Shown piece after piece: positions 8,054 through 21,455 of a stretch of 64,000 nt of DNA. A program made the position numbers and the translations under genes. The notes under the pieces were generated by a model that made no database searches, was not told the DNA's origin, and was given only the letters and a program-made list of their open reading frames with translations. Each line of letters opens with the position of its first letter. Position 1 is the first letter of the stretch. Source of the stretch: an uncultured Campylobacterales bacterium (GTDB taxonomy: Bacteria > Campylobacterota > Campylobacteria > Campylobacterales > Arcobacteraceae). The stretch is taken from NCBI GenBank assembly GCA_947503785.1, contig CANNFB010000001.1, positions 310,001 through 374,000 of the forward strand. The letters are read 5' to 3'.

Positions 8054-8938
8054 ATGACTCCACAAAAAAAAGCTACGGTCGTTTCTTCATCAGTTGCGGC
8101 CCTTTTAACTATTATAAAACTTGTAATAGGTATTGCTAGTGGATCAGTTGCTGTTTTAGCTTCAGCAATTGATTCTGTTCTGGATATGTTTGTATCACTT
8201 TTCAACTATTTTGCAATATCAAACTCTGAAAAACCAGCAGATAGAGAATTTAATTATGGTCGAGGAAAAATTGAAGCATTAGCTTCTGTTATTGAAGGTA
8301 CAATTATTACTGTATCTGGATTATTTTTACTTTATCAAGCGATACAAAAAGCAATAAATGGTGAGATATCTAAGTATGTTGAAGTATCTATTGTTGTTAT
8401 GATTATCTCACTTGTGATTACAATTTTTTTAGTAATTTACTTAAATAAAGTTGCTAAAAAAACTAAATCTATGGTTATTAAAGCCGATGCACTTCACTAT
8501 AAAACAGATGTTTATTCAAATGTTGCTGTTTTGACATCTTTAGTACTTGTACATCTTACAGGATATGAAATAATTGATGTTCTTGTAGGAAGTGGTATTG
8601 CTTTATATATTATTTACTCTGCCTATGAATTAATTCATGATGGTGTTTTAGTTTTACTAGATAGAGCAGTTGATAGTAAGTTAGTTCATAAAATTGAAGA
8701 TATAATTAAACATAATGAAAATGTAAATGCTTATCATCTTTTAAAGACAAGAGAAGCTGGTCACCAAACTTTTGTTGAAGTACATTTAGTTTTTGATTGT
8801 ATAATTACACTTATGAACGCACATAAAACAAGTGATAAAATTGAACAAGAAATAGAAAACTTAGATAAAGATAGAGACTGGATAATTAATATTCATATGG
8901 ATCCTTATGATGATTTTGAAATTAATGATGAGAAATAA
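8054..8938 (+). CDS. Cation diffusion facilitator (FieF/YiiP-like)
   Basis: A 294-residue inner-membrane exporter for divalent metals. Six membrane segments span about residues 10-190. The transport site is the pair AIDSVLD (Asp40, Asp44) and ALHYKTD (His148, Asp152). Asp at the first position and His at the third match the Zn/Fe/Cd FieF-type group. The cytosolic C-terminal domain holds His-rich metal sites such as the HQTFVEVHLVFD segment near 237. It directly follows aspC with a two-base gap and may simply share that promoter. The metal cannot be fixed from sequence. Confidence 0.92.
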   Translation: MTPQKKATVVSSSVAALLTIIKLVIGIASGSVAVLASAIDSVLDMFVSLFNYFAISNSEKPADREFNYGRGKIEALASVIEGTIITVSGLFLLYQAIQKAINGEISKYVEVSIVVMIISLVITIFLVIYLNKVAKKTKSMVIKADALHYKTDVYSNVAVLTSLVLVHLTGYEIIDVLVGSGIALYIIYSAYELIHDGVLVLLDRAVDSKLVHKIEDIIKHNENVNAYHLLKTREAGHQTFVEVHLVFDCIITLMNAHKTSDKIEQEIENLDKDRDWIINIHMDPYDDFEINDEK

Positions 8939-8950
8939 ATAAGGAAGAAA

Positions 8951-9388
8951 ATGAGAAATATTTTATTTATACTATTATTTATAACTACTACATTATTTGC
9001 AAACGGCAAAATTGATTACCGAACTGCAAAAATTTATAAAGATGATATTTCCTCTATTAGTGCTTTTGCTATGCAAAAAGAAGGAGCCTTGTTAATTGAT
9101 GTTAGAACTAAAGCAGAATTTAAAAAATTAAGAGCAAAGGATTCTTTAAATATTCCTATATTCTATGCAAAAAATGGGAAAAGAGTATTTAATAGAAACT
9201 TTCTAGAAGAAATTTATAAAGTATCACAAGAGAATATAAACAGAAAAATAATCCTAATTTGTAGAAGTGGTTCAAGAACAAAACTAGCAAGTAATTTATT
9301 AGCTGAACAAGGTTTTACTAAGGTATATAATGTACAGCGTGGATTTCAATATGATTGGTTAAAAGTAAAGCTTCCCACTGAAAAATAA
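8951..9388 (+). CDS. Periplasmic rhodanese-like protein
   Basis: A 145-residue protein with a signal peptide (about residues 1-17, ending LFANG) and one rhodanese domain. The active-site loop is ILICRSGSRT with the catalytic Cys104. The domain starts with the typical LLIDVRTKAEF (47-57) and ends with VYNVQRGFQYDW. The CRSGSRT loop is of the six-residue sulfurtransferase type. It probably handles persulfide sulfur in the periplasm, which fits sulfur-active Campylobacterota, but the donor and acceptor are unknown. It is the last gene of the aspC run. Confidence 0.88.
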   Translation: MRNILFILLFITTTLFANGKIDYRTAKIYKDDISSISAFAMQKEGALLIDVRTKAEFKKLRAKDSLNIPIFYAKNGKRVFNRNFLEEIYKVSQENINRKIILICRSGSRTKLASNLLAEQGFTKVYNVQRGFQYDWLKVKLPTEK

Positions 9389-9438
9389 TAATTTTTTACT
9401 CCTTAAATATTTTTGTTAAATAATAAAGTTTATTTAGA

Positions 9439-9444
9439 TATAAT
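9439..9444 (+). promoter_or_regulatory. -10 box for the phosphodiesterase/cyclase/secretion operon
   Basis: TATAAT 23 bases before the ATG at 9468, which has its own AAAGGAATTTT ribosome site. No clear -35 box. The four following genes are separated by at most 18 bases. Confidence 0.55.
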
Positions 9445-9467
9445 CATTGATATATTAAAGGAATTTT

Positions 9468-11798
9468 ATGAATTTTATCAAAATTTTGGGTGCAAGTGGA
9501 AGTAGAGCTAAAGGAATGGGAACAACATCATTCCAAATCTTCAAAGATATCATAGTTGATGCAGGAAATGTAATAAACTCATTGGGCGATGAAGCCTTAG
9601 ATATAAATCATGTATTTTTAACACATTCTCATACAGACCATATTTCTGATTTACCATTTGTAATAGAAAGTTTTTTTGAAAAAAGAAAAACTCCTTTAAC
9701 TATCTATGCTTTAAAAGAAACTATCGATGTTTTAAAAGATCATGCTTTTAATAATTTAGTTTGGCCAGATTTTACAAAAATACAATTAGTGAATTCTAAT
9801 GAAAATTCTTTAATTTTTAGAGAAATTAAAGTAGATGAAATTATTAAATTACATGATTATGAAATAAGAGCTTTTCCAGCTGTACATATAGCCGGTGCTT
9901 GTGGTTTTATAATAACTAAAAACAAGCAAGGTTTTATGATAAGTGGAGACACATATAAAAACCCTATTATCTGGGAAGAACTAAATAAAAATAAAGAGAT
10001 AAAATCTCTTCTATTAGAATGTTCTTTTCCAGACAAGTTAACTTCATTTGCAAAAAGTACAAGCCACTTATCTCCCCAACTTATTAAAGAAGAATTAGAA
10101 AATTTAGAAAGAGATGATATAACAATTTTTTTATATCATATAAAACCTGTATATGATAAAGAAATTAAAAAAGATATTAAAAAACATGAATTATTAAAAA
10201 ATGGTGGTAAAATTTTAGTAGAAGGGGATGTTATCCATATTGATAAAGGAACGATTGAACACAATTTAATTAGTGAAGATATGTTCCAAGAAATTATGAA
10301 AATTAATCTTTCTTTATCATCAGAAATGGATAAAGACGTACTGCTAGAAAAAATTCTAACCCTACTTAGAAAACTAACATCAGCAGATGCAGGAACACTA
10401 TATCTTAAATCAAAAGATGGAACTAAACTTGATTTTAAAGTTGTACAAAATGATCCTTTAAATATAAATATTGGTGGAGCTAAAAAGAATCTTGATTGGG
10501 AGTCATTGCCTTTTATTTTAGAAGATGGCTCTTTAAATAATAAAATGGTTGCTGTTGTTTGTGTAAGTGAAAAAAGAATTATTAATATTAAAGATGTATA
10601 TAGAACAACAAAATACATTTTTAAAGGTACTAAAGATTTTGATCAAACGACAGGATATAGATCTAAATCTATGTTAGTAATTCCTTTAATTAATCATGAA
10701 AATGAAGTTATTGGTGTTTTACAATTAATTAATAAAATGGATAACCATAATATAGTAGATTTTAATAAAACTGATGAAAATATATTAAAATCACTAGCAT
10801 CTCAAGCTGCAATGTCACTTACAAATACTCAATTAGTTTTAAATTTAGAAGAGCTTTTAAATGCATTTGTAGCAACAATTGCAAAAGCCATTGATGCAAA
10901 ATCTCCTTATACAGCAGATCATATAGGAAAAGTAGAAAAAATTGCTCTACTTTTAGCAAAAGCTATAAATGACGATAAAACAATTTATAAAGATGTTTCA
11001 TATAAAGACAATGATTATAAACAAATTGCTTTAGCAGCATGGATGCATGATATTGGAAAAATTTCTATGCCTGAACATATAATTGACAAATCTACAAAGC
11101 TTGAAAAAATATTTGATCGAATTGAATTAATAGAATCTAGATTTGAAGTAATAAAAAGAGATGTGGAAATCAACTATCTTAAAAACAATATAAGTAAAGA
11201 AGAATTTGATGAAAAAATCGTAACTTTAAATGATTATATAGAATTTTTAAAAGCCACTAACAAAGGTGGTGAATTCATGCATGATGACAATGTAGAGAAA
11301 TTAAATAAAATAGCTAAATTAACTTATATTAAAAATGGAAAAACTATTCCAATTTTAAATGAGGACGAATTCTATAATTTATCAATAATAAAAGGAACTT
11401 TAACACGTGAAGAGATAGATATTATTAGAAATCATGCCAAATTATCTCTAGAAATGATTTCAACATTACCTTTCCCAAAAAAATATGCAGATGTTTTAAA
11501 TATCGCATGTAATCACCATGAGAAATTAAATGGAGAAGGATATCCAAGAGGACTTACCGCAGATGAAATTACACTAGAAGATAGAATAATGATTTTTGCA
11601 GATGTATTTGAAGCATTAACAGCATCACAACGTCCATATAAAGATGCAATGAAATTATCTCAAGCATATAATATTTTAAATAATATGGTTCAAAAAGGTG
11701 AAATTGATAAAGAACTAACTGAATTCTTTTTTAATCATAAAATTTTACATACTTACGCAAATGATTCTTTATCAGCTGACCAAATTGATATAAAGTAG
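9468..11798 (+). CDS. Beta-lactamase-fold phosphodiesterase / GAF / HD-GYP fusion
   Basis: A 776-residue three-module protein. Residues 1-260 form a metallo-beta-lactamase-fold domain with HSHTDH (His53, His55, Asp57, His58), His140, Asp161 and His224, resembling class II cyclic-nucleotide phosphodiesterases. Residues about 280-455 look like a GAF sensory domain. Residues 465-760 are an HD-GYP domain: MHDIGK (His527, Asp528), NHHEKLNGEGYP (683-693) and FADVFEALT. The GYP motif reads GEGYP rather than DGxGYP. About 100 residues are inserted between the HD and the second half. It could thus cleave both cyclic mononucleotides and c-di-GMP. No signal peptide, so cytosolic. It heads the operon with the adenylate cyclase, four bases away. 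Domain calls are firm, substrates inferred. Confidence 0.88.
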   Translation: MNFIKILGASGSRAKGMGTTSFQIFKDIIVDAGNVINSLGDEALDINHVFLTHSHTDHISDLPFVIESFFEKRKTPLTIYALKETIDVLKDHAFNNLVWPDFTKIQLVNSNENSLIFREIKVDEIIKLHDYEIRAFPAVHIAGACGFIITKNKQGFMISGDTYKNPIIWEELNKNKEIKSLLLECSFPDKLTSFAKSTSHLSPQLIKEELENLERDDITIFLYHIKPVYDKEIKKDIKKHELLKNGGKILVEGDVIHIDKGTIEHNLISEDMFQEIMKINLSLSSEMDKDVLLEKILTLLRKLTSADAGTLYLKSKDGTKLDFKVVQNDPLNINIGGAKKNLDWESLPFILEDGSLNNKMVAVVCVSEKRIINIKDVYRTTKYIFKGTKDFDQTTGYRSKSMLVIPLINHENEVIGVLQLINKMDNHNIVDFNKTDENILKSLASQAAMSLTNTQLVLNLEELLNAFVATIAKAIDAKSPYTADHIGKVEKIALLLAKAINDDKTIYKDVSYKDNDYKQIALAAWMHDIGKISMPEHIIDKSTKLEKIFDRIELIESRFEVIKRDVEINYLKNNISKEEFDEKIVTLNDYIEFLKATNKGGEFMHDDNVEKLNKIAKLTYIKNGKTIPILNEDEFYNLSIIKGTLTREEIDIIRNHAKLSLEMISTLPFPKKYADVLNIACNHHEKLNGEGYPRGLTADEITLEDRIMIFADVFEALTASQRPYKDAMKLSQAYNILNNMVQKGEIDKELTEFFFNHKILHTYANDSLSADQIDIK

Positions 11799-11802
11799 AA
11801 AG

Positions 11803-13962
11803 ATGCCCGTAGGATCAAAAATAAAAGAAAATTCTATTTATATATTATCATCTATTATTATTGCTACTTTAATTAGTTTTATTTATATATTTACACCTAA
11901 ATTACCTTCTTCTATAGACAATAGATTAAAAGATTATATGTTTAATATAAGGGGTGAAGTAGCTCCCAAAACAGATAGTGTAGTAATTATTGATATTGAT
12001 GAGAAGTCTTTGCAATCTTTAGGACAATGGCCTTGGTCTAGAGATATTCTAGCAACTATCTTAAAAAATTTGTCTAGTAATGATATTGCAATAATTGGAT
12101 TAGATATTGTTTTTGCAGAACAAGATAGAACCTCTCCACATAAAATATTTGAGAAACTAAATATAGAAAAAGAAAATATACCTAATTATGATTCTGAGTT
12201 TGCCCAAACTGTTGCTTCAACACCTACAATATTAGGTTATCAATTTGAGTTTCAAGCACTAGATCATATTAACAAAGAAGCACCTGCAATTCAAACAATG
12301 TTTATTGAAAAAAATAAAAAGCTAGGGGAGAATTACTTATTGCAAGCAAAGGGAACAATTTTAAATATTCCAGTAATTCAAGATAGCTCATATTCTAGTG
12401 GATTTTTTAATAACATTCCAGATGATTCAGGAGTGATTAGAAGTGTTCCACTAATTATTTCTTATGATGATGAGATATATCCATCTCTAGCACTTGAAAC
12501 ACTTAGAATTGCATTGGGTATAAAAAGAATCACTATCAACTATGATGAAAATGGAGTGAAAAATCTTCAATTAAATGACTATCTTATTCCTACAGATAGA
12601 CATGGTAGATTGATTATTAATTTTAGAGGAAAAGAAAAAACATTTAAATATATATCAGCAATTGATATTTATAATAATAACTTTAAAAAAGAAGATATAG
12701 TAAATAAAATTGCTCTAATAGGAACTTCTGCTGCTGCTTTAATGGATTTAAGAGCCACTCCTTTTGAATCAATATTTCCAGGAGTAGAAGTTCATGCGAA
12801 TGTAATAGATAATATTATTGCAAAAGATTTTTTATATGAGCCATCTTGGGTTAATGGTGCAAATATATTCATCATTTTTTTATTAGTATTGATAGTAGGC
12901 TATTTAACAAGAAAAATTCACTTGTTATTTATTCCTTTTTTAATTACAGGTTTACTATTTTCTGCTTCTTATTTAATTTACTATACACTTTTTAATTATG
13001 GTTTAGTATTAAATATATTTTTCCCACTAATGACTATTGTATTATCTACAATTGTTACTATAATGTTGCAATATTTTTATGAAATTAAAAAGAAAGATGA
13101 AATTAAAAATAAGTTTGCGTCAAAAGTTTCAAAAGATGTAATGGAACAATTATTAAAAAATGTAAATAATAAACAATTAGAAGCTCAGAATAAAGAAATA
13201 ACAGTATTTTTTAGTGATATTAGAGGTTTTACTAAAATTTCTGAAGATATAAAACAACCTGAATTATTAGTAAAATATATCAATAAATATATGACACCAA
13301 TGAGCGAGATAATTACAAAAAACAAAGGCACAATTGATAAATATATTGGAGATGCTATTATGGCATACTGGAATGCTCCTTTTGATATAGAAGACCATGA
13401 AGATAAAGCGGTAAAAAGTGCACTTGAACAATTAATAGAACTAGAACAATTAAATATAACACTCAAAAAAAACAATCAACCAAGAATTGATATAGGAATT
13501 GGTATAACAACAGGTATTGCAACTGTTGGTGAAATTGGAAGTATTGGACGAAGTGATTATACAGTGATTGGTGATACTATCAATATTGGCTCAAGAGTTG
13601 AATCTTTATGTAAGTATTATAATGCAAAATTAATTATTACAAACTTCACTAAAGATAAATTAAAAGATACTTATATTCTTAGATATCTTGATTATGTTCA
13701 ATTAAAGGGTAAGGATGAAGCTATTGAATTATGGGAAGTTATTAATGAAGATGCAAATACAGATGGTTTTAAAGTAGAATTAGCAATTTATAATGAAGCT
13801 ATTAAATTATATAAAGAAAAAGAACTACATGAAGCAAAAAAAATATTTAATAAATTAAATAAAACAAATCCAAGCGAAATATACAAAATATATTTACTAA
13901 GATGTGAAGATTATATAAAGAATAAAGAATTCCAAGAGGTTTATAAACATGAAAATAAATAA
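11803..13962 (+). CDS. CHASE2-domain class III adenylate cyclase
   Basis: A 719-residue membrane-bound cyclase. One helix (13-30) leads into an extracytoplasmic CHASE2 sensor domain (about 35-345), three further helices (352-368, 373-395, 402-425) and a cytosolic class III cyclase domain (about 460-645). The metal aspartates are Asp472 in FFSDIRGFT and Asp517 in YIGDAIMAY. Lys513 and Asp585 (DYTVIGD) fit adenine recognition. Asn594 and Arg598 in INIGSRVE are the transition-state pair. All needed residues are present, so it should make cAMP. The 3' end overlaps the barrel gene by 14 bases. The product would be opposed by the phosphodiesterase-like domain encoded just upstream. Confidence 0.92.
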   Translation: MPVGSKIKENSIYILSSIIIATLISFIYIFTPKLPSSIDNRLKDYMFNIRGEVAPKTDSVVIIDIDEKSLQSLGQWPWSRDILATILKNLSSNDIAIIGLDIVFAEQDRTSPHKIFEKLNIEKENIPNYDSEFAQTVASTPTILGYQFEFQALDHINKEAPAIQTMFIEKNKKLGENYLLQAKGTILNIPVIQDSSYSSGFFNNIPDDSGVIRSVPLIISYDDEIYPSLALETLRIALGIKRITINYDENGVKNLQLNDYLIPTDRHGRLIINFRGKEKTFKYISAIDIYNNNFKKEDIVNKIALIGTSAAALMDLRATPFESIFPGVEVHANVIDNIIAKDFLYEPSWVNGANIFIIFLLVLIVGYLTRKIHLLFIPFLITGLLFSASYLIYYTLFNYGLVLNIFFPLMTIVLSTIVTIMLQYFYEIKKKDEIKNKFASKVSKDVMEQLLKNVNNKQLEAQNKEITVFFSDIRGFTKISEDIKQPELLVKYINKYMTPMSEIITKNKGTIDKYIGDAIMAYWNAPFDIEDHEDKAVKSALEQLIELEQLNITLKKNNQPRIDIGIGITTGIATVGEIGSIGRSDYTVIGDTINIGSRVESLCKYYNAKLIITNFTKDKLKDTYILRYLDYVQLKGKDEAIELWEVINEDANTDGFKVELAIYNEAIKLYKEKELHEAKKIFNKLNKTNPSEIYKIYLLRCEDYIKNKEFQEVYKHENK

Positions 13963-15583
13963 TAAAAGTTTTTTATTAACAACAATTTTATTTTTCCCAT
14001 ATTTAGGTCTAAGTGCTGATACTTATACCTTATACATTGCATCAAGTAAATATAAAGATGTTGCAAAAAACTATATAGAAGAAGTTAATGATTTATTAAA
14101 AATTGAAAACTTAGTTGTAAGAACACATAAGAAAAAAAATTATAGTTTAATAGTTAATAAAATAAAAGACATTCAAACAGCAAAGAAATTACAAAAGAAA
14201 TTACAATTAGAATCAACATATACAGATACTTTTATTAAAAAAGAGAAAAATGATTTAAAATATGGAGTAATATATTACACAAAATTTATGCTGGATAATA
14301 AAACTATTATAAAAGAAAAAAAAGCAGATGAAACAGAATATATTTTAGATGTAGAATCATCAAATGAATATATCACTGCTTCAACAATGTATAATATAGG
14401 AAACTATAAAAGATCATATGAACTATTTAATAAACTCTTTTATAAGCATAACTACAATTTAAATGTCAACTACTTCCTAGCACAAAGTGCAATTAAATTA
14501 GCAATGTACGATGAAGCATCAATAGCACTTGAAAGAGTTTTAATACAAGACCCAACGTTTAATAAAGCTAGATATGATTATGCAAGACTTTTAACAAAAT
14601 TAAAATTAAATAAAGAGGCAAAAGAAGAATTCAACATCCTCTTAAAAGAGAATATTACTGAAGAAACAAAAAAAGATGTTCAAAAGTATTTAAAGTTTTT
14701 AAATGAAAAGAAAAAATTAACTTCAAATTCTGCTACATTAATTTTAGGGGTAGGTCATAATACAAATGTAAATAATGGCTTATTAACTCAAGAATATAGA
14801 CTTCCAGGATTAGGTGATATTTCAGTTTTAGGAGAAGAACCTATTAGTGATAATTTTCATAATGAAGTTATATCTTTTGATTTTAATAGAACTTTTAAAT
14901 CTAATCCTGCAATAAGAATTAAAAACAATTTTCTAGCATATAATAAAAGTTATTTTAATGAAAAAAATGAAAACACTTCTGTTTTTTCATATAGACCTAC
15001 ATTATCTTATTTTTACAATAATAATATATATGCTTTAGATTTAAATGCATCTAGAGTTTTAAAAAAAGATGATAATGATATAAATGTATTTTCTTTCTCT
15101 CCATCTCTTACAAATAAATATTTAAAAGCATCATTAGAATATCAAAAACTTTTATATGTAAATAATATAAATAAAAGTAAGAATTTCGAAAAATATTCAT
15201 TAGAATTTATATATAACTTACAAAAAAACTTAAAAATCTATACAAATATAGGAAAAATAATTAGAATAAAAAAAGAGCGTATAGACCTTGATAAAGTATC
15301 TAGAGCCATAGGTTTAAAATACAATTATACACTTAATAATAAAAATATGATATACTTAGGGTATAAGTTTGAAAGAAATAATTTTAGGTATTACAATATG
15401 TTTTTTGATAATAAAAGAAAAGATAGTACTCACAACTTGAATTTAAGTTATATATATAACATAAGTAAAAGTAATGTGATTAACTTATCAACTTCTTTTA
15501 ATAGAAACAATTCTAATCAAGATGCATATTCATATGAAGAGTATGAAACTAAAGTTAATTATATAAAGAAATTTAATTGGTAA
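13949..15583 (+). CDS. TPR plus DUF560-type (Slam-like) outer-membrane barrel
   Basis: A 544-residue exported protein. It has a signal peptide (1-22), a SPOR-like region (24-95), a TPR region (about 140-255) and a beta-barrel from about 262. The barrel begins LILGVGHNTNVNNG, resembling the GxGYDxNVN start of DUF560 barrels, and ends on an aromatic residue (KKFNW). TPR plus C-terminal DUF560 barrel is the layout of Slam proteins, the translocons of type XI secretion, which export TbpB-like cargo. The next gene encodes a protein with TbpB-like C-terminal domains, a fitting cargo. Start overlaps the cyclase gene by 14 bases. The barrel is clear, while the Slam assignment is by architecture and neighbour. 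Confidence 0.7.
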   Translation: MKINNKSFLLTTILFFPYLGLSADTYTLYIASSKYKDVAKNYIEEVNDLLKIENLVVRTHKKKNYSLIVNKIKDIQTAKKLQKKLQLESTYTDTFIKKEKNDLKYGVIYYTKFMLDNKTIIKEKKADETEYILDVESSNEYITASTMYNIGNYKRSYELFNKLFYKHNYNLNVNYFLAQSAIKLAMYDEASIALERVLIQDPTFNKARYDYARLLTKLKLNKEAKEEFNILLKENITEETKKDVQKYLKFLNEKKKLTSNSATLILGVGHNTNVNNGLLTQEYRLPGLGDISVLGEEPISDNFHNEVISFDFNRTFKSNPAIRIKNNFLAYNKSYFNEKNENTSVFSYRPTLSYFYNNNIYALDLNASRVLKKDDNDINVFSFSPSLTNKYLKASLEYQKLLYVNNINKSKNFEKYSLEFIYNLQKNLKIYTNIGKIIRIKKERIDLDKVSRAIGLKYNYTLNNKNMIYLGYKFERNNFRYYNMFFDNKRKDSTHNLNLSYIYNISKSNVINLSTSFNRNNSNQDAYSYEEYETKVNYIKKFNW

Positions 15584-15601
15584 AAGATACAGGGGAAAAT
15601 A

Positions 15602-17782
15602 ATGAAGTTATTAATATTATTAATATTATTTACAAATATTTTATTTGCAAATGTAGGAAAGATTGTATCACTTAAAGGTGAAGCTAATATTACAAGAGAC
15701 AATAAAACTTTTCAAGTAAAAAGAGATACTCTCTTGAAAGAAAAAGATTTACTTATTACAAAAAATAACTCTAAAGTACAAATTTTATTTAAAGATGAAA
15801 CTATCATTTCTATTGGGAAAAATTCTACATTTAAAATTAATGACTATTTATTTGAAGATAAAGACAATGTAAAAGCAGAATTTTCTATGATTAAAGGTGT
15901 ATTTAGAACAATCACTGGAAAAATAGGAAAAATTGCACCTCAAAACTTTAAACTAAAAACAAAAAGTGCTTCAATAGGAATTAGAGGAACACAAATAATC
16001 ACTCAAATTACAGATGGCAAAGAAAGAATATTCTGTACAGAAGGTCAAATCGAAGTTACTCAAATCTCAACAAATCTAAAAATTATTGTTAATAAAGGTG
16101 AATTCATTGCTATGGAAAGAGCTAATGGAAATTCATTACAAAAAAATAAAACAAAAATAAAAGATTTAAAAGAAGTTAATCAAAATGTATCAGTTAATAA
16201 AAATAAAGCACAAGATTCTGTTACAAAAGAAGAAACTGTAGGACAAGAAGATAGTTCAACTCTAAATACACAAACAAATACAACTCAGACTGTTGAAACA
16301 GAAAATGTTGTTAAAGTAGTTGCTGACTCAGAATCAAATGATGAAGTATTAGAAAAAGTGAATGAAGAAGCGGAAGCTAAAAGATTAGCTGATGAAAAAG
16401 CTGAAGCTCAAAGAGTAGCTGATGAGAAACTAGCAGCTAAGAAAGAAGCTCAAAGGCTTGCTGATGAAGAAGCCCAAAGGCTAGATAATAAACGAATTGC
16501 TCAAGAAGAAGCTCAAAGACTTGCTGATGAAGAAGCCCAAAGATTAGCCCAAGAACAAGTTGCTGCAGCTGAAGCTCAAAGACTTGCGGATGAAGAAGCT
16601 CAAAGATTAGCCCAAGAACAAGTTGCTGCAGCTGAAGCTCAAAGACTTGCTGATGAAGAAGCTCAAAGACTTGCTGATGAAAATGCCAGTGAACAAGAAA
16701 AAGCTGACGCTGCTGAAGTTCAAAGACTTGCTAATGAAGAAGCTCAAAAATTAGCGGATGAGCAAGTTGCTGCAGCTGAAGCTCAAAGACTTGCTAATGA
16801 AGAAGCTCAAAGATTAGCAGACGAGCAAGCTGTAGCAGAAGAAGCTCAAAGACTTGCTGATCAAGAAGCTCTACAATTAGCAGCTGATCAAGCTGCTGCA
16901 GAAGAAGCTCAAAGACTTGTAGATGAAGAAGCCGCTGCTGAGCTTACTGCAAGTTTACAATTTTTAACACCAGATTCTTATTATGTAAATAATAATAGCA
17001 AAGCATCTTATGTTGGAAATTTTAATTCAACACCTTTTGATTCAAAAAGACAATATCTAGAGATTAAAGAGGACAAAAATAAAGTATCTATTCCTATGAA
17101 TAGTACAATTTCTATGAATATTGATTTTGGAGCAGCTGATGATCAAGTAAGTAATGGAAAAGTTTCAGTAATAGGTTATACAGACTTAAAATTTGATGGA
17201 CATTTTCATAAAGATAACAAGTTACATCTAAGACCAATAGATACAACATCAGGAAAAGGTGGGGATGCTTATTTTTACGGAGCTGAGGGAAATATTATAA
17301 AGGGTGATATAGATTTACATAATGATGATATAAAAATAAAAGCTGATTTTCAAGCTAGTAAATATAATGAAAATAGTCTAAATGAACTAACAGAACTTGA
17401 TTACTTTACAAATAATACATCTACAGCAACATATAGTGGTGATTTTAATTCTTATACATATGATGAAGATACTCAATTTAAAAAACTTGGTTCTTATAAA
17501 TATAAAATTCCAGATGAAACTTCTATTAATATGAATATAGATTTTGGAGCAACTTCTAATCAAATTACTGAAGGAAAAATAGATCATAAATTTACTAGTG
17601 ATTTGAATTTTAATGGTTCTATTAGTGGAAATAGTTTTGAATTAACAGGTATAGAAAATACTACAGGTACAGGATCTGGAAATTTTTATGGTACTTCTGC
17701 AAATGTAATTAGAGGAGAAGTAGATATGACTGATTCTGATGAAATTCAAACTAAAGGTAAATTTGAAGCAAGTAAGAACTAA
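15602..17782 (+). CDS. Secreted FecR protein with Ala/Glu-rich repeats and tandem TbpB-like domains
   Basis: A 726-residue protein with a signal peptide (1-16, NILFA) and no lipobox. Residues 18-135 are a FecR domain (GKIVSLKGEANITR to KSASIGIRGTQI). A Thr/Asn/Gln linker follows, then 256-447 is a charged alpha-helical repeat built on AQRLADEE. Residues 453-587 and 597-726 are two related beta-rich domains sharing MNIDFGA and then G-FYG-A-NIIKGDID / GNFYGTSANVIRGEVD. This strand pattern resembles the TbpB C-lobe beta-barrel domain found in type XI secretion cargo. Ribosome site AGGGG. I infer a cell-surface or released protein exported by the barrel encoded upstream. Function unknown. Confidence 0.75.
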   Translation: MKLLILLILFTNILFANVGKIVSLKGEANITRDNKTFQVKRDTLLKEKDLLITKNNSKVQILFKDETIISIGKNSTFKINDYLFEDKDNVKAEFSMIKGVFRTITGKIGKIAPQNFKLKTKSASIGIRGTQIITQITDGKERIFCTEGQIEVTQISTNLKIIVNKGEFIAMERANGNSLQKNKTKIKDLKEVNQNVSVNKNKAQDSVTKEETVGQEDSSTLNTQTNTTQTVETENVVKVVADSESNDEVLEKVNEEAEAKRLADEKAEAQRVADEKLAAKKEAQRLADEEAQRLDNKRIAQEEAQRLADEEAQRLAQEQVAAAEAQRLADEEAQRLAQEQVAAAEAQRLADEEAQRLADENASEQEKADAAEVQRLANEEAQKLADEQVAAAEAQRLANEEAQRLADEQAVAEEAQRLADQEALQLAADQAAAEEAQRLVDEEAAAELTASLQFLTPDSYYVNNNSKASYVGNFNSTPFDSKRQYLEIKEDKNKVSIPMNSTISMNIDFGAADDQVSNGKVSVIGYTDLKFDGHFHKDNKLHLRPIDTTSGKGGDAYFYGAEGNIIKGDIDLHNDDIKIKADFQASKYNENSLNELTELDYFTNNTSTATYSGDFNSYTYDEDTQFKKLGSYKYKIPDETSINMNIDFGATSNQITEGKIDHKFTSDLNFNGSISGNSFELTGIENTTGTGSGNFYGTSANVIRGEVDMTDSDEIQTKGKFEASKN
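16367..16942 (+). repeat. In-frame repeat coding AQRLADEEA units
   Basis: About 575 bases of imperfect direct repeats inside the FecR gene, with units GAAGCTCAAAGACTTGCTGA in many copies. Two near-identical longer units start near 16565 and 16625. They encode an acidic/basic helical stalk. Such repeats are prone to copy-number change between strains. Confidence 0.9.
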
Positions 17783-17795
17783 TACTTCTTACTTG
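17769..17795. terminator. Ten-base inverted repeat at the end of the FecR gene
   Basis: CAAGTAAGAA (17769-17778) pairs perfectly with TTCTTACTTG (17786-17795) across a seven-base loop holding the stop codon. It probably ends the operon. No T-run follows directly, though a T-rich patch starts 17 bases on. Confidence 0.5.
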
Positions 17796-17861
17796 AAATA
17801 AGCTACTAATTGTTTTTTAGATAAACTCACACTAACTTAAAAACAGGAAAACTATAATTAT

Positions 17862-19817
17862 ATGGCATTAATAGACCTACAAAACATTTCAAAACAATAT
17901 GACACAAAAGTTATCTTAAAAAATGCAAACTTTACTTTAAATCAAGGTCAAAGAATTGCAGTAATTGGTCAAAATGGCCAAGGAAAATCAACACTTCTAA
18001 AAATTATTACAGGTGAAACTGAACCTGATGATGGAATAAAAGCTATTGATAAATCTATTAAAATAGAAATGCTAGCTCAACATCCAAAATTTGATGATGA
18101 TTTAATAGTAAGAGATGCTATTGAAAATCAATTGAAAGAATTAAAAGATGCAAGAGTTGAGTATGAGGAAATATCTCTTAAAATTGTAGATGATTATGAA
18201 AATACAGAATTAATCAATAGACAAAGTGAACTTGCAACATTTTTAGAATTCCATGATGCATGGGATTTGGACAATATGATTGAGCGGGTACTAAAAGAGT
18301 TTCATTTAAAAGAGTATGAATTCAAAGATGTTAATCTTCTTTCAGGTGGTGAACAAAGAAGAGTTTCACTAGCTGGTCTTCTATTGAAAAAACCTGATGT
18401 TTTACTTTTAGATGAACCTACAAATCATCTTGATGTATATATGGTTGAGTTTTTAGAACAACTTTTAATTAAGAAGAATTTCACTCTTATATTTATTTCA
18501 CATGATAGATACTTTATTGATAACATCGCAACTTCAGTTATTGAAGTTGAAAATGGAACATTGCGTAAGTTTCATGGTGGATACTCATCATACTTAGAAC
18601 AAAAGCAACAACTATTAGAGAATATGCAAAAAGATCATCATAATATGATTAGATTATTCAAAAGAGAAGCTCATTGGATGCAAAGAGGCGTTACTGCTAG
18701 ACGAAAAAGAAATGTTAGAAGAAAAGCAGATTATTTAGATTTAAAACAAAAAGTAAAATCAAATCCAGCCGCAATTAGAAAAATGAGTGTGGAACTACAA
18801 AGAGAACAAAAATCTTTTAACAGTGAGGAAACAAGAACTCAAAATAAAAAGAAAATGCTATTTGAACTTGATGATATAGGTATCACATTAGGGGATAAAC
18901 TTCTAATCAAAGAGTTTACTACTAGAATTTTACAAAAAGACACTATTGCAATTGTAGGACCAAATGGAACGGGTAAATCCACAATGCTTAAAATATTTAT
19001 GGAAAAACTAAAAATTGATTCAGGTAAATTTAAAAAAGGTGATTTTAAAGTAGGATATTTTGACCAACATCGAGAAATGCTAAATGACAATCAAACTATC
19101 ATGCACACATTTTGTCCAAATGGTGGAGACTTAGTTGAGTTAAACGATGGTAGAACAATGCATGTTTATGGTTACTTAAAAAATTTCTTATTTCCAAAAG
19201 AGTACTTAGAAAAGAAAATTGGAGTATTGAGTGGTGGCGAAAAAAATAGAGTTGCTTTAGCTCTTTTATTCACTAGAAATATCGATTGTTTAGTTTTAGA
19301 TGAGCCTACTAATGATTTAGATTTACCTACTATTAATATTTTAGAAGAGTATCTAGAAAACTTTCAAGGTGCTATTATATTTGTATCTCATGATAGATAT
19401 TTTGTTGATAAGATTGCAAAAAAACTATTTGTTTTTAAAGGTGTAAACGGGCAAGTAGAAGAAAGTTTTCAACCTTATAGTGAATACTTAGAAATTGAAA
19501 AAGAGTTAAAAGATTTAAACTCATTAGAAAAAAGTTTAAAAAAAGAAGAAATTGAAAAAACTAAAGAAATAACAAAAAAGAAACAAGTAAAACTTTCATT
19601 TAATGAGCAAAGAGATCATGAAATGCTTCCAGATGAAATAGAAGCTTTAGAAACTAAAATAGAAGAAATTAACAACTGCCTTATGGATTCAAAGTGTTAT
19701 GAAGCTAAAGGTATAGTTGCAGTATCTAAAGAGCTTGAAGAAGTAGAAGCGATTTATGAAACAAAAGTTGAAAGATTTCTAGAACTTGAAGAGTTAATTG
19801 AGAGTTTTAACTCTTAA
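17862..19817 (+). CDS. uup: ABC-F family ATPase, Uup type
   Basis: A 651-residue soluble protein with two ABC domains and no membrane part. Walker A motifs are GQNGQGKST (36-44) and GPNGTGKST near 368. Signature motifs LSGGEQRRVSLAGLL and LSGGEKNRVALALL are followed by Walker B segments LLLDEPTNHLD and LVLDEPTNDLD. Between them lies the charged linker with MQRGVTARRKRNVRRKADY, typical of ABC-F proteins acting on ribosomes or branched DNA. The C-terminal 100 residues form a Lys/Glu-rich coiled coil as in Uup. It stands alone between the FecR operon and a new promoter for yqeY. Confidence 0.9.
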   Translation: MALIDLQNISKQYDTKVILKNANFTLNQGQRIAVIGQNGQGKSTLLKIITGETEPDDGIKAIDKSIKIEMLAQHPKFDDDLIVRDAIENQLKELKDARVEYEEISLKIVDDYENTELINRQSELATFLEFHDAWDLDNMIERVLKEFHLKEYEFKDVNLLSGGEQRRVSLAGLLLKKPDVLLLDEPTNHLDVYMVEFLEQLLIKKNFTLIFISHDRYFIDNIATSVIEVENGTLRKFHGGYSSYLEQKQQLLENMQKDHHNMIRLFKREAHWMQRGVTARRKRNVRRKADYLDLKQKVKSNPAAIRKMSVELQREQKSFNSEETRTQNKKKMLFELDDIGITLGDKLLIKEFTTRILQKDTIAIVGPNGTGKSTMLKIFMEKLKIDSGKFKKGDFKVGYFDQHREMLNDNQTIMHTFCPNGGDLVELNDGRTMHVYGYLKNFLFPKEYLEKKIGVLSGGEKNRVALALLFTRNIDCLVLDEPTNDLDLPTINILEEYLENFQGAIIFVSHDRYFVDKIAKKLFVFKGVNGQVEESFQPYSEYLEIEKELKDLNSLEKSLKKEEIEKTKEITKKKQVKLSFNEQRDHEMLPDEIEALETKIEEINNCLMDSKCYEAKGIVAVSKELEEVEAIYETKVERFLELEELIESFNS

Positions 19818-20327: not shown

Positions 20328-21455
20328 ATGAGTAAAGAATTTCAAGAAGTATTTTCAAAACTAACTGAATCTGAGAAAAAAGAAGTAACAAAAAGTAAAA
20401 TTGAAAGCTTAATAGAATTAGTTCCTATTCTTTTAGAAAGAGTTTGCGAAAAAAATGTAAATGAGTTAGCAACACTACTTAAACAGTCTGTTTTACCTTC
20501 AATTTGTTCTCAAACTGATGATGAAATAGAACAATTATTTGAAAATATAGATAAAGATAAAAATTTATTATTTGATAAAGAAGTACAAGAAAAAATACAA
20601 AGATTTATTGAACAAAGATTTGAAAGAGATAAACAAGTTGTAATTCAAAGAACTTCTGATATATCAAAGTTTGTTTCATTAATGGGACAATATTTAAATG
20701 ATGCAATCACAAGTAGTGGTTCTGGTTCTAAAAATGTATTAAATATAAAAGAAAAAATACAATCTATTGATTTAACAAGTAATGGATTAATAGAGTTATC
20801 TGATTTACAAACAGAACTTATAAATGCAGCTTCATCAATAGAAGCAGAAATGAACACAGTAAGTGATAAATTGCAAAGTGGAAAAACTCAAGTTCAAGAA
20901 CTTGAAGAAAAAGTAAATTCACTAGAAGAAGAACTAACTAAAACAAAAAATGAAAGTATGAAAGATCATTTAACAGGTTTACTTACAAGAAGAGCTTATA
21001 ATGACGAAATCAAAAGAATAGAGAGTTCTTATAAAAGACATAATACTCAATATGCCGTAGTCTTTTTTGACTTAGATTTTTTCAAAAAAGTAAATGATAC
21101 TTATGGACATGAGTGTGGAGATGTAATTTTATCTACATTTGCTAAAATATTAGAAAAAAACACTAGAGATCATGATATTGTTGGAAGATATGGTGGAGAA
21201 GAATTCGTTGCCATTGTACATTTTAATTTAAATAGAGAGCTTTTACAATATTTAAAAAGAATTAAAACAATTGTTAATGCAAATAACTTTAAATATAAAG
21301 AGCACGAAATAAAAGTAACATTTTCAGCAGGTGTTTCAATAAGATCAGATCATGAATCTTATGATAGTGCTATTCAAAAAGCTGATATGCTTTTATACGA
21401 AGCAAAAGAGAATGGCAGAAATCAAATCAAACTTGAAGATGGAAAAACTATTTAG
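20328..21455 (+). CDS. Diguanylate cyclase with helical N-terminal region
   Basis: A 375-residue cytosolic protein that makes c-di-GMP. Residues 1-205 are helical, with a coiled coil at about 165-208 and no sensor domain I recognise. The GGDEF domain (about 210-372) has DHLTGLLTRRAY at its start, FFDLDFFKKVNDTYGH for nucleotide binding and an active GGEEF at 289-293. Arg280 and Asp283 form an RxxD inhibitory site exactly five residues before it, so product inhibition is likely. This architecture is common in Campylobacterota, where one such enzyme regulates attachment (Cbr/DgcB-like). No such link can be made here. Confidence 0.93.
   Translation: MSKEFQEVFSKLTESEKKEVTKSKIESLIELVPILLERVCEKNVNELATLLKQSVLPSICSQTDDEIEQLFENIDKDKNLLFDKEVQEKIQRFIEQRFERDKQVVIQRTSDISKFVSLMGQYLNDAITSSGSGSKNVLNIKEKIQSIDLTSNGLIELSDLQTELINAASSIEAEMNTVSDKLQSGKTQVQELEEKVNSLEEELTKTKNESMKDHLTGLLTRRAYNDEIKRIESSYKRHNTQYAVVFFDLDFFKKVNDTYGHECGDVILSTFAKILEKNTRDHDIVGRYGGEEFVAIVHFNLNRELLQYLKRIKTIVNANNFKYKEHEIKVTFSAGVSIRSDHESYDSAIQKADMLLYEAKENGRNQIKLEDGKTI

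Follow-up and report, generated by a model that had tools for sequence, protein, structure and literature searches.

A Campylobacterota CHASE2 adenylate cyclase cluster with a putative type XI secretion pair that carries a FecR domain

A four-gene cluster encoding a CHASE2 adenylate cyclase, a cAMP phosphodiesterase, a FecR protein and a TPR protein has already been reported from Campylobacterota (mBio 2022, PMC9239204), and the available excerpts of that report propose one signaling pathway and horizontal transfer for it. Those excerpts concern the same four genes, in the same phylum, as the locus described here. In them, the barrel protein is termed a 'TPR domain-containing protein' and the FecR protein is assigned to the outer membrane, and their description of the cluster makes no mention of a type XI secretion system (T11SS)/DUF560, of TbpB tails or of a mechanism. 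In T11SS (Slam, NilB and HrpB with TbpBBD cargo; PMC8406197, PMC9090332, PMC12282271), an outer-membrane protein with TPR and 14 strands, as opposed to 16 in PgaA (PMC8406197), is encoded beside a protein exported by Sec whose C-terminus forms an 8-strand TbpBBD barrel. The locus described here has the same arrangement, and its FecR protein resembles the soluble SPI-type cargo of T11SS subcluster 1B. The cargo of environmental T11SS clusters has been described as unknown (PMC8406197). Our locus differs in its linked signaling enzymes, in a SPOR domain on the outer-membrane protein, and in a cargo N-terminus that is a FecR signaling domain rather than a host-effector domain. Two T11SS survey texts do not mention FecR, Campylobacter or a cyclase, and in the open-access papers searched we found none on a T11SS pair, or on DUF560/'surface lipoprotein assembly modifier', together with FecR. 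What is new here is thus that genes 3 and 4 are recognized as a probable T11SS pair, together with the link to NsrA; the cluster itself is known.

In the FecA-FecR and PupB-PupR systems of cell-surface signaling, a FecR-type domain works periplasmically and links a barrel in the outer membrane to an output at the inner membrane. These systems share the FecR-type fold with our protein (PupR, 6ovk) but, unlike our locus, have an ECF sigma factor output, an inner-membrane FecR and a TonB-dependent receptor barrel. In the BiofilmReg operon of Burkholderia, LysM-FecR is paired with CHASE2 kinases (PMC5192318). There too a FecR protein adjoins a CHASE2 sensor, but that FecR protein has a peptidoglycan-binding domain, the output is a histidine kinase, and no barrel or TbpB tail is described. 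The closest experimentally studied parallel is found in S. meliloti, where an external protein elicits a response that requires both NsrA and the CHASE2 cyclase CyaK, and signaling from the outer membrane to cAMP has been demonstrated genetically (PMC7529298; PMC13001267). Residues 600-1200 of NsrA form a barrel (PMC7529298), and in the pSymB sequence nsrA lies upstream of cyaK with a 1-bp overlap and encodes 1190 aa with FecR and TPR by Pfam. As in our locus, FecR, TPR and barrel modules stand directly beside a CHASE2 class III cyclase; in NsrA they form one protein, whereas here they are split over two, so that our locus may work like NsrA but is not an NsrA-type receptor. NsrA also has no TbpB tail and its output is the CRP-type regulator Clr. 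Pfam gave no SlipAM match for the NsrA barrel, and the parallel is therefore functional, not full homology.

The locus analyzed here lies in a 64,000-nucleotide stretch of DNA (the window) from a marine Arcobacter-like bacterium with a genome of 2.76 Mb. Four open reading frames (ORFs) follow one another on the same strand between positions 9468 and 17782 (Table 1), separated by a 4-bp gap, a 14-bp overlap and an 18-bp gap, with about 80 bp flanking the cluster on either side. This reproduces the tight spacing given in the initial annotation, whose list of features is extended here by the SPOR domain at the N-terminus of the barrel protein and by the NKXnFX3DE motif in the GAF domain. Across 8800-18000, a terminator scan found no intrinsic-terminator-like site, and promoter-like sites were no commoner than chance. 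A GGEEF diguanylate cyclase-like protein is encoded about 2.5 kb downstream of the cluster (20328-21455).

Table 1. Features of the four-gene cluster (window positions) and giant predicted surface proteins of related loci (locus positions). AF2, AlphaFold2; TM, transmembrane segment.
Feature	Position	Strand	Details
Gene 1, MBL-GAF-HD-GYP protein	9468-11798	+	776 aa
MBL / putative class II cAMP phosphodiesterase module	9468-10262	+	N-terminal; HSHTDH residues 53-58
GAF domain	10326-10820	+	NKXnFX3DE cyclic-nucleotide-type motif, residues 422-437
HD-GYP c-di-GMP phosphodiesterase domain	10875-11735	+	HDIGK 527, HHEKLNGEGYP 683
Gene 2, CHASE2 adenylate cyclase	11803-13962	+	719 aa; one N-terminal TM, C-terminal TMs
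Periplasmic CHASE2 domain	11866-12891	+	PF05226, 2.7e-61
Class III catalytic domain	13186-13725	+	PF00211 Guanylate_cyc, 2.5e-21
Gene 3, putative Slam/DUF560-type (T11SS) outer-membrane protein	13949-15583	+	544 aa; SPOR + TPR + barrel
SPOR domain	14015-14239	+	8.8e-6; AF2 residues 25-99
TPR helices	14363-14707	+	AF2 residues 139-253
14-stranded barrel (predicted)	14720-15577	+	AF2 residues 258-543
Gene 4, FecR protein with T11SS-type cargo tails	15602-17782	+	726 aa; Sec/SPase I-type leader
FecR domain	15659-16126	+	PF04773, 6.8e-14; AF2 pLDDT mostly >90
Ala/Glu/Gln-rich predicted helix, ~200 residues	16340-16942	+	Tandem repeats, 63-bp unit
TbpB-like tail 1	16958-17362	+	40% identical to tail 2, E 3e-29
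TbpB_B_D tail 2	17417-17779	+	Terminal cargo module; 8-stranded barrel, residues 608-725
Giant protein, L037	2205-7538		
Giant protein, L054	2977-7110		
Giant protein, L058	3-6635		
Giant protein, L064	1040-6292		
Giant protein, L066	544-6354		
Giant protein, L069	10372-14538		
Giant protein, L072	3339-8567		

The gene 3 protein was modeled with AlphaFold2 from a 38-sequence alignment (mean pLDDT 86.9, mostly above 90 in the TPR and barrel regions), and the model predicts the T11SS architecture of an N-terminal TPR followed by a 14-strand barrel. Pfam scans of the protein detected TPRs and gave no match to PF04575 (Slam/DUF560, SlipAM; curated cut-off 22 bits); its TPR_Slam score of 5e-4 was below the cut-off, and the barrel matched Porin_4 weakly rather than SlipAM. 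Among the 38 family members, 13 match PF04575 at E<=0.01, and relatives above the cut-off include L038 (30.4 bits), L101 (25.4), L108 (35.2), L082 (44.6) and L174 (25.9), with the matches of several relatives spanning most of the barrel. The L038 barrel gene (first listed as L008) was reached directly in a search with the window barrel (2e-31), and by this chain through relatives the window barrel is probably a distant member of the Slam/DUF560 family. The TPR-DUF560-type barrel proposed in the initial annotation is thus upheld through these relatives and the predicted architecture, not through the Pfam score of the window copy itself. Foldseek against the PDB listed generic barrels, OmpG-like porins and BcsC as top matches, the best architecture match being BcsC (TPR and barrel); no Slam structure was among the matches listed, and the comparison is non-discriminating. 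The barrel adjoins a FecR protein that ends in a TbpB_B_D domain above the cut-off, as it does in most loci, and we infer that it translocates cargo across the outer membrane. The SPOR domain, which is of the peptidoglycan-binding type, was found by Pfam in 3/38 family members of this T11SS-like protein. In Poseidonibacter ostreae (L121) the barrel gene appears split into ORFs of 357 and 206 aa, possibly by a frameshift or an assembly error.

The gene 4 leader, as read from the sequence, is Sec-type and without a lipobox, and a lipobox was present in 0/38 aligned FecR family members. Foldseek matched the FecR domain to anti-sigma regulators (BDI_1681, PupR), with the PupR signaling domain 6ovk and with 4m0n among the structures. 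At the other end of the protein, tail 2 scored 30.5 bits (5.8e-7) against PF01298, for which the cut-off is 26, and a genome search identified it as the sole place in the host genome above the TbpB_B_D cut-off. A full-length hmmscan of gene 4 missed the tail, probably because of the low-complexity stalk, but both the isolated fragment and the genome search detected it. Tail 1 alone gave no Pfam match and was poorly modeled by AF2. Structural matches of tail 2 were NHBA (6cuj, 5.0e-7) and 5o1r (TMt 0.77), with further Foldseek matches to TbpB, LbpB, HphA, fHbp and hemophilin, and phmmer also aligned tail 2 with NHBA (5.6e-4). A profile of the FecR family searched against the PDB found TbpB (6.6e-14) and NHBA (5.9e-9) and, more weakly, fHbp, LbpB and a haemophore. 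We take the proteins that structurally match the tail to be largely known Slam/T11SS cargo. A PF01298 match was present in 24/38 related FecR proteins. By sequence and model, gene 4 has the signal peptide and C-terminal 8-strand TbpBBD barrel of a T11SS cargo, which bears out the TbpB-like tails claimed earlier; its tails are TbpB-type T11SS cargo barrels that would be exported.

The enzymes encoded by genes 1 and 2 appear intact, and the catalytic residues noted in the initial annotation proved to be conserved in family alignments as well. The gene 2 protein is, by its sequence, a complete class III adenylate cyclase with a CHASE2 domain, as had been claimed: CHASE2, the catalytic domain and all key residues are present, TM-like segments can be read from the sequence, and across the cyclase family the metal Asp pair, Lys513, Thr587 and Asn594 are kept in 57/57 members and Arg598 in 56/57. 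Thr587, at the second purine-specifying position, points to ATP and the class IIIb type. An apparent FecR-CHASE2-cyclase fusion at L136 (1088 aa) was rejected, as it results artefactually from an N gap with a frame shift. In gene 1, the N-terminal module matches PF02112 PDEase_II (2.4e-15), and its metal ligands (HxHxDH, D, H) are kept in 30/30 aligned relatives, which identifies a class II cAMP phosphodiesterase on sequence with cAMP as the putative substrate. This MBL module also forms a gene of its own next to other CHASE2 cyclases, and at L136 and L140 MBL and GAF-HD-GYP are separate adjacent genes. The GAF domain (PF01590, 3.8e-14) plausibly binds cAMP, as its NKXnFX3DE signature is conserved among the relatives (n=30) with N in 30/30, K in 28/30, F in 26/30, D in 30/30 and E in 21/30, although such a signature is by itself no proof of binding. 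The C-terminal domain (PF13487 HD_5, 1.2e-34) retains, as do its relatives, the HD and HHExxNGxGYP residues expected of an HD-GYP phosphodiesterase. Seven proteins with a PF00027 cyclic-nucleotide-binding domain in the host genome are possible cAMP receptors.

A survey of gene order was among the checks named in the initial annotation, and the neighborhood is strongly conserved, which excludes a chance arrangement. The barrel occurs in 57/249 genomes of the order, and a cyclase is encoded by 52/57 of these compared with 26 of the barrel-less rest (Fisher p about 4e-28, a value that ignores relatedness). In 41 loci chosen by their barrel, FecR lies within 300 bp in 36/41, a cyclase within 6 kb in 25 and an MBL gene in 18; wherever FecR and barrel are both present they share a strand (38/38). 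Gene order and orientation in the cluster vary between loci, so common descent of a single stretch is not enough to explain the linkage. For about a dozen barrel-FecR pairs the stretch read contains no cyclase, and a few pair-bearing genomes give no cyclase match anywhere. A scan of genome contigs with a profile of seven close FecR proteins placed the nearest named relatives of the window FecR gene in Poseidonibacter (Arcobacteraceae), and in P. lekithochrous (L120) all four genes recur in identical order.

Three architectures could be distinguished, although loci L080-L119 were picked for a cyclase or FecR match and counts from them are not unbiased frequencies. In architecture A, a tailed FecR protein is paired with the barrel, often with a cyclase. 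Architecture B (seven loci) has the barrel and a FecR protein on which no tail was detected, most with a cyclase; the FecR protein is clearly short (212-236 aa) in L101, L107, L108, L109 and L111, and uncertain in L082, beside an N-gap, and in L084, a 246-aa protein at a contig end. Such pairs indicate that the tail is not obligatory. Architecture C has a short FecR protein and a cyclase without a barrel (L100, L102-L104, L106). The stable core is thus FecR-CHASE2, with a variable outer-membrane part. At L110 (6320-7393), a short NsrA-like protein of Campylobacterota joins FecR to an OmpA-like outer-membrane barrel, and its gene lies immediately upstream of one for a CHASE2 cyclase. Beyond this phylum, where the spread rests on the single loci L173, L174, L176, L177, L184 and L190, similar barrel-FecR pairs were found in Gallionellaceae and Chromatiaceae (L174, L176, L177), and a Paracoccus plasmid (L190) carries a TPR-barrel, FecR and a CHASE2 cyclase, with a TbpB_B_D-like FecR tail just below the cut-off (E 2e-4).

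A Chromatiaceae MAG (L177) encodes two tail-positive proteins (8498-10903 and 11021-11818) separate from a short FecR gene that looks frameshifted and neighbors a barrel and a CHASE2 cyclase. At L039 (5709-9170) and L045 (10114-13992), two tandem FecR-tail genes lie beside a single barrel, which suggests one translocon with several cargoes. Campylobacter gastrosuis (L144, 8001-12280) has a 642-aa barrel and a FecR protein whose charged helix is very long, and no cyclase in the stretch read. In seven loci, giant predicted surface proteins of 1377-2211 aa are encoded close to the barrel and FecR genes or between them (Table 1). Those scanned contained Ig-like, RCC1, FG-GAP or PKD domains, TbpB_B_D was absent from the five scanned, and the giant proteins are possibly additional cargo or adhesins.

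We compared pairwise distances of the modules across 47 loci by permutation of loci, a design in which phylogenetic dependence remains. With the catalytic domain removed, distances of FecR and CHASE2 were correlated (partial r 0.63, p at the permutation floor), whereas FecR and the catalytic domain with CHASE2 removed were not comparably so (partial r 0.09); the barrel behaved similarly (0.41 with CHASE2 vs 0.18 with the catalytic domain). The pattern survived restriction to tailed loci, MBL as a control and equalized column numbers. A periplasmic complex would be expected to produce such covariation, but so could a shared evolutionary rate of envelope proteins.

Together, these data suggest that the four genes form one envelope-spanning, outside-in signaling unit that runs from the T11SS pair through FecR to the CHASE2 cyclase, a reading to which we assign a probability of about one half. 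Gene 3 would be the T11SS (Slam/DUF560-type) outer-membrane translocon and gene 4 its partner, in which a long helical stalk connects the FecR domain to TbpB-type barrels at the C-terminus. The translocon would carry the tails to, or hold them at, the cell surface, the FecR domain would stay or be released in the periplasm and contact CHASE2, and the state of the surface or outer-membrane module would set cAMP synthesis inside the cell. At the outer membrane, the tail would serve as a surface sensor held through the barrel, or else what is sensed would be the status of export. Downstream, the unit may be self-contained: the cyclase would make cAMP, the MBL module would hydrolyze it and end the signal, and the GAF domain, by plausibly binding cAMP, may regulate HD-GYP in a cAMP-to-c-di-GMP relay. 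Outside-in signaling is favored because NsrA joins in one protein the modules that are split here over genes 3 and 4. A more specific version, which we offer tentatively, is a two-part receptor in which the T11SS barrel threads the tail to the surface and the FecR head, on a ~30-nm helix, remains periplasmic; this receptor would gate the CHASE2 cyclase directly, and c-di-GMP hydrolysis by way of a GAF domain that binds cAMP.

The linkage and covariation evidence would equally fit a system in which jammed or saturated export leaves the FecR-tail cargo in the periplasm to switch CHASE2, so that cAMP reports export and not a ligand. This is the self-sensing loop of the initial annotation, and it accords with cargo and reporter domain forming a single polypeptide in most loci and with a FecR-tail protein that, without a lipobox, could be released. 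We nevertheless consider it unlikely, given the FecR-CHASE2 pairs of architecture C, which have neither tail nor barrel, and the NsrA precedent, which answers an external protein (PMC7529298). Still less likely is that information flows the other way, with cAMP acting through CRP-type regulators, or c-di-GMP, to time the T11SS pair and neighboring surface proteins. Such regulated display needs no contact between FecR and CHASE2 and corresponds to the route from signal to cAMP to surface export that the initial annotation had drawn; the seven PF00027 proteins and the giant Ig/RCC1/FG-GAP proteins of some barrel-FecR loci would suit it. However, regulation does not follow from gene clustering by itself, the covariation of FecR is with CHASE2 rather than with the catalytic domain, FecR-CHASE2 linkage is maintained where barrel or tail is absent, and in the experimentally studied NsrA-CyaK parallel the signal starts at the outer membrane and leads to cAMP (PMC7529298, PMC13001267). 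The component identities and neighborhood of that annotation therefore stand, while its direction from cAMP to export finds no support. We regard as least probable that the barrel is porin-like, a polysaccharide-type TPR-barrel or a pure receptor, with FecR as its periplasmic adaptor as in FecA-FecR. Its resemblance to BcsC and OmpG-like porins, the weak Porin_4 match in place of SlipAM, and the barrels paired with FecR proteins without a detected tail all lean that way, but it has 14 strands, not 16 (the criterion of PMC8406197), its relatives exceed the SlipAM cut-off, its FecR partner ends in a cargo barrel in most loci, and no polysaccharide synthase genes were identified within the cluster itself.

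Little is known of the signals that CHASE2 domains perceive. If the outside-in reading is true, the FecR domain is the CHASE2 partner, and this T11SS cargo is a signaling protein, not an adhesin or a metal binder. The cluster offers a concrete, genetically tractable case for both CHASE2 sensing and T11SS cargo. NsrA-CyaK in symbiosis, BiofilmReg in biofilm formation and the Campylobacterota cAMP cluster would then share a common theme of outer membrane, FecR and CHASE2.
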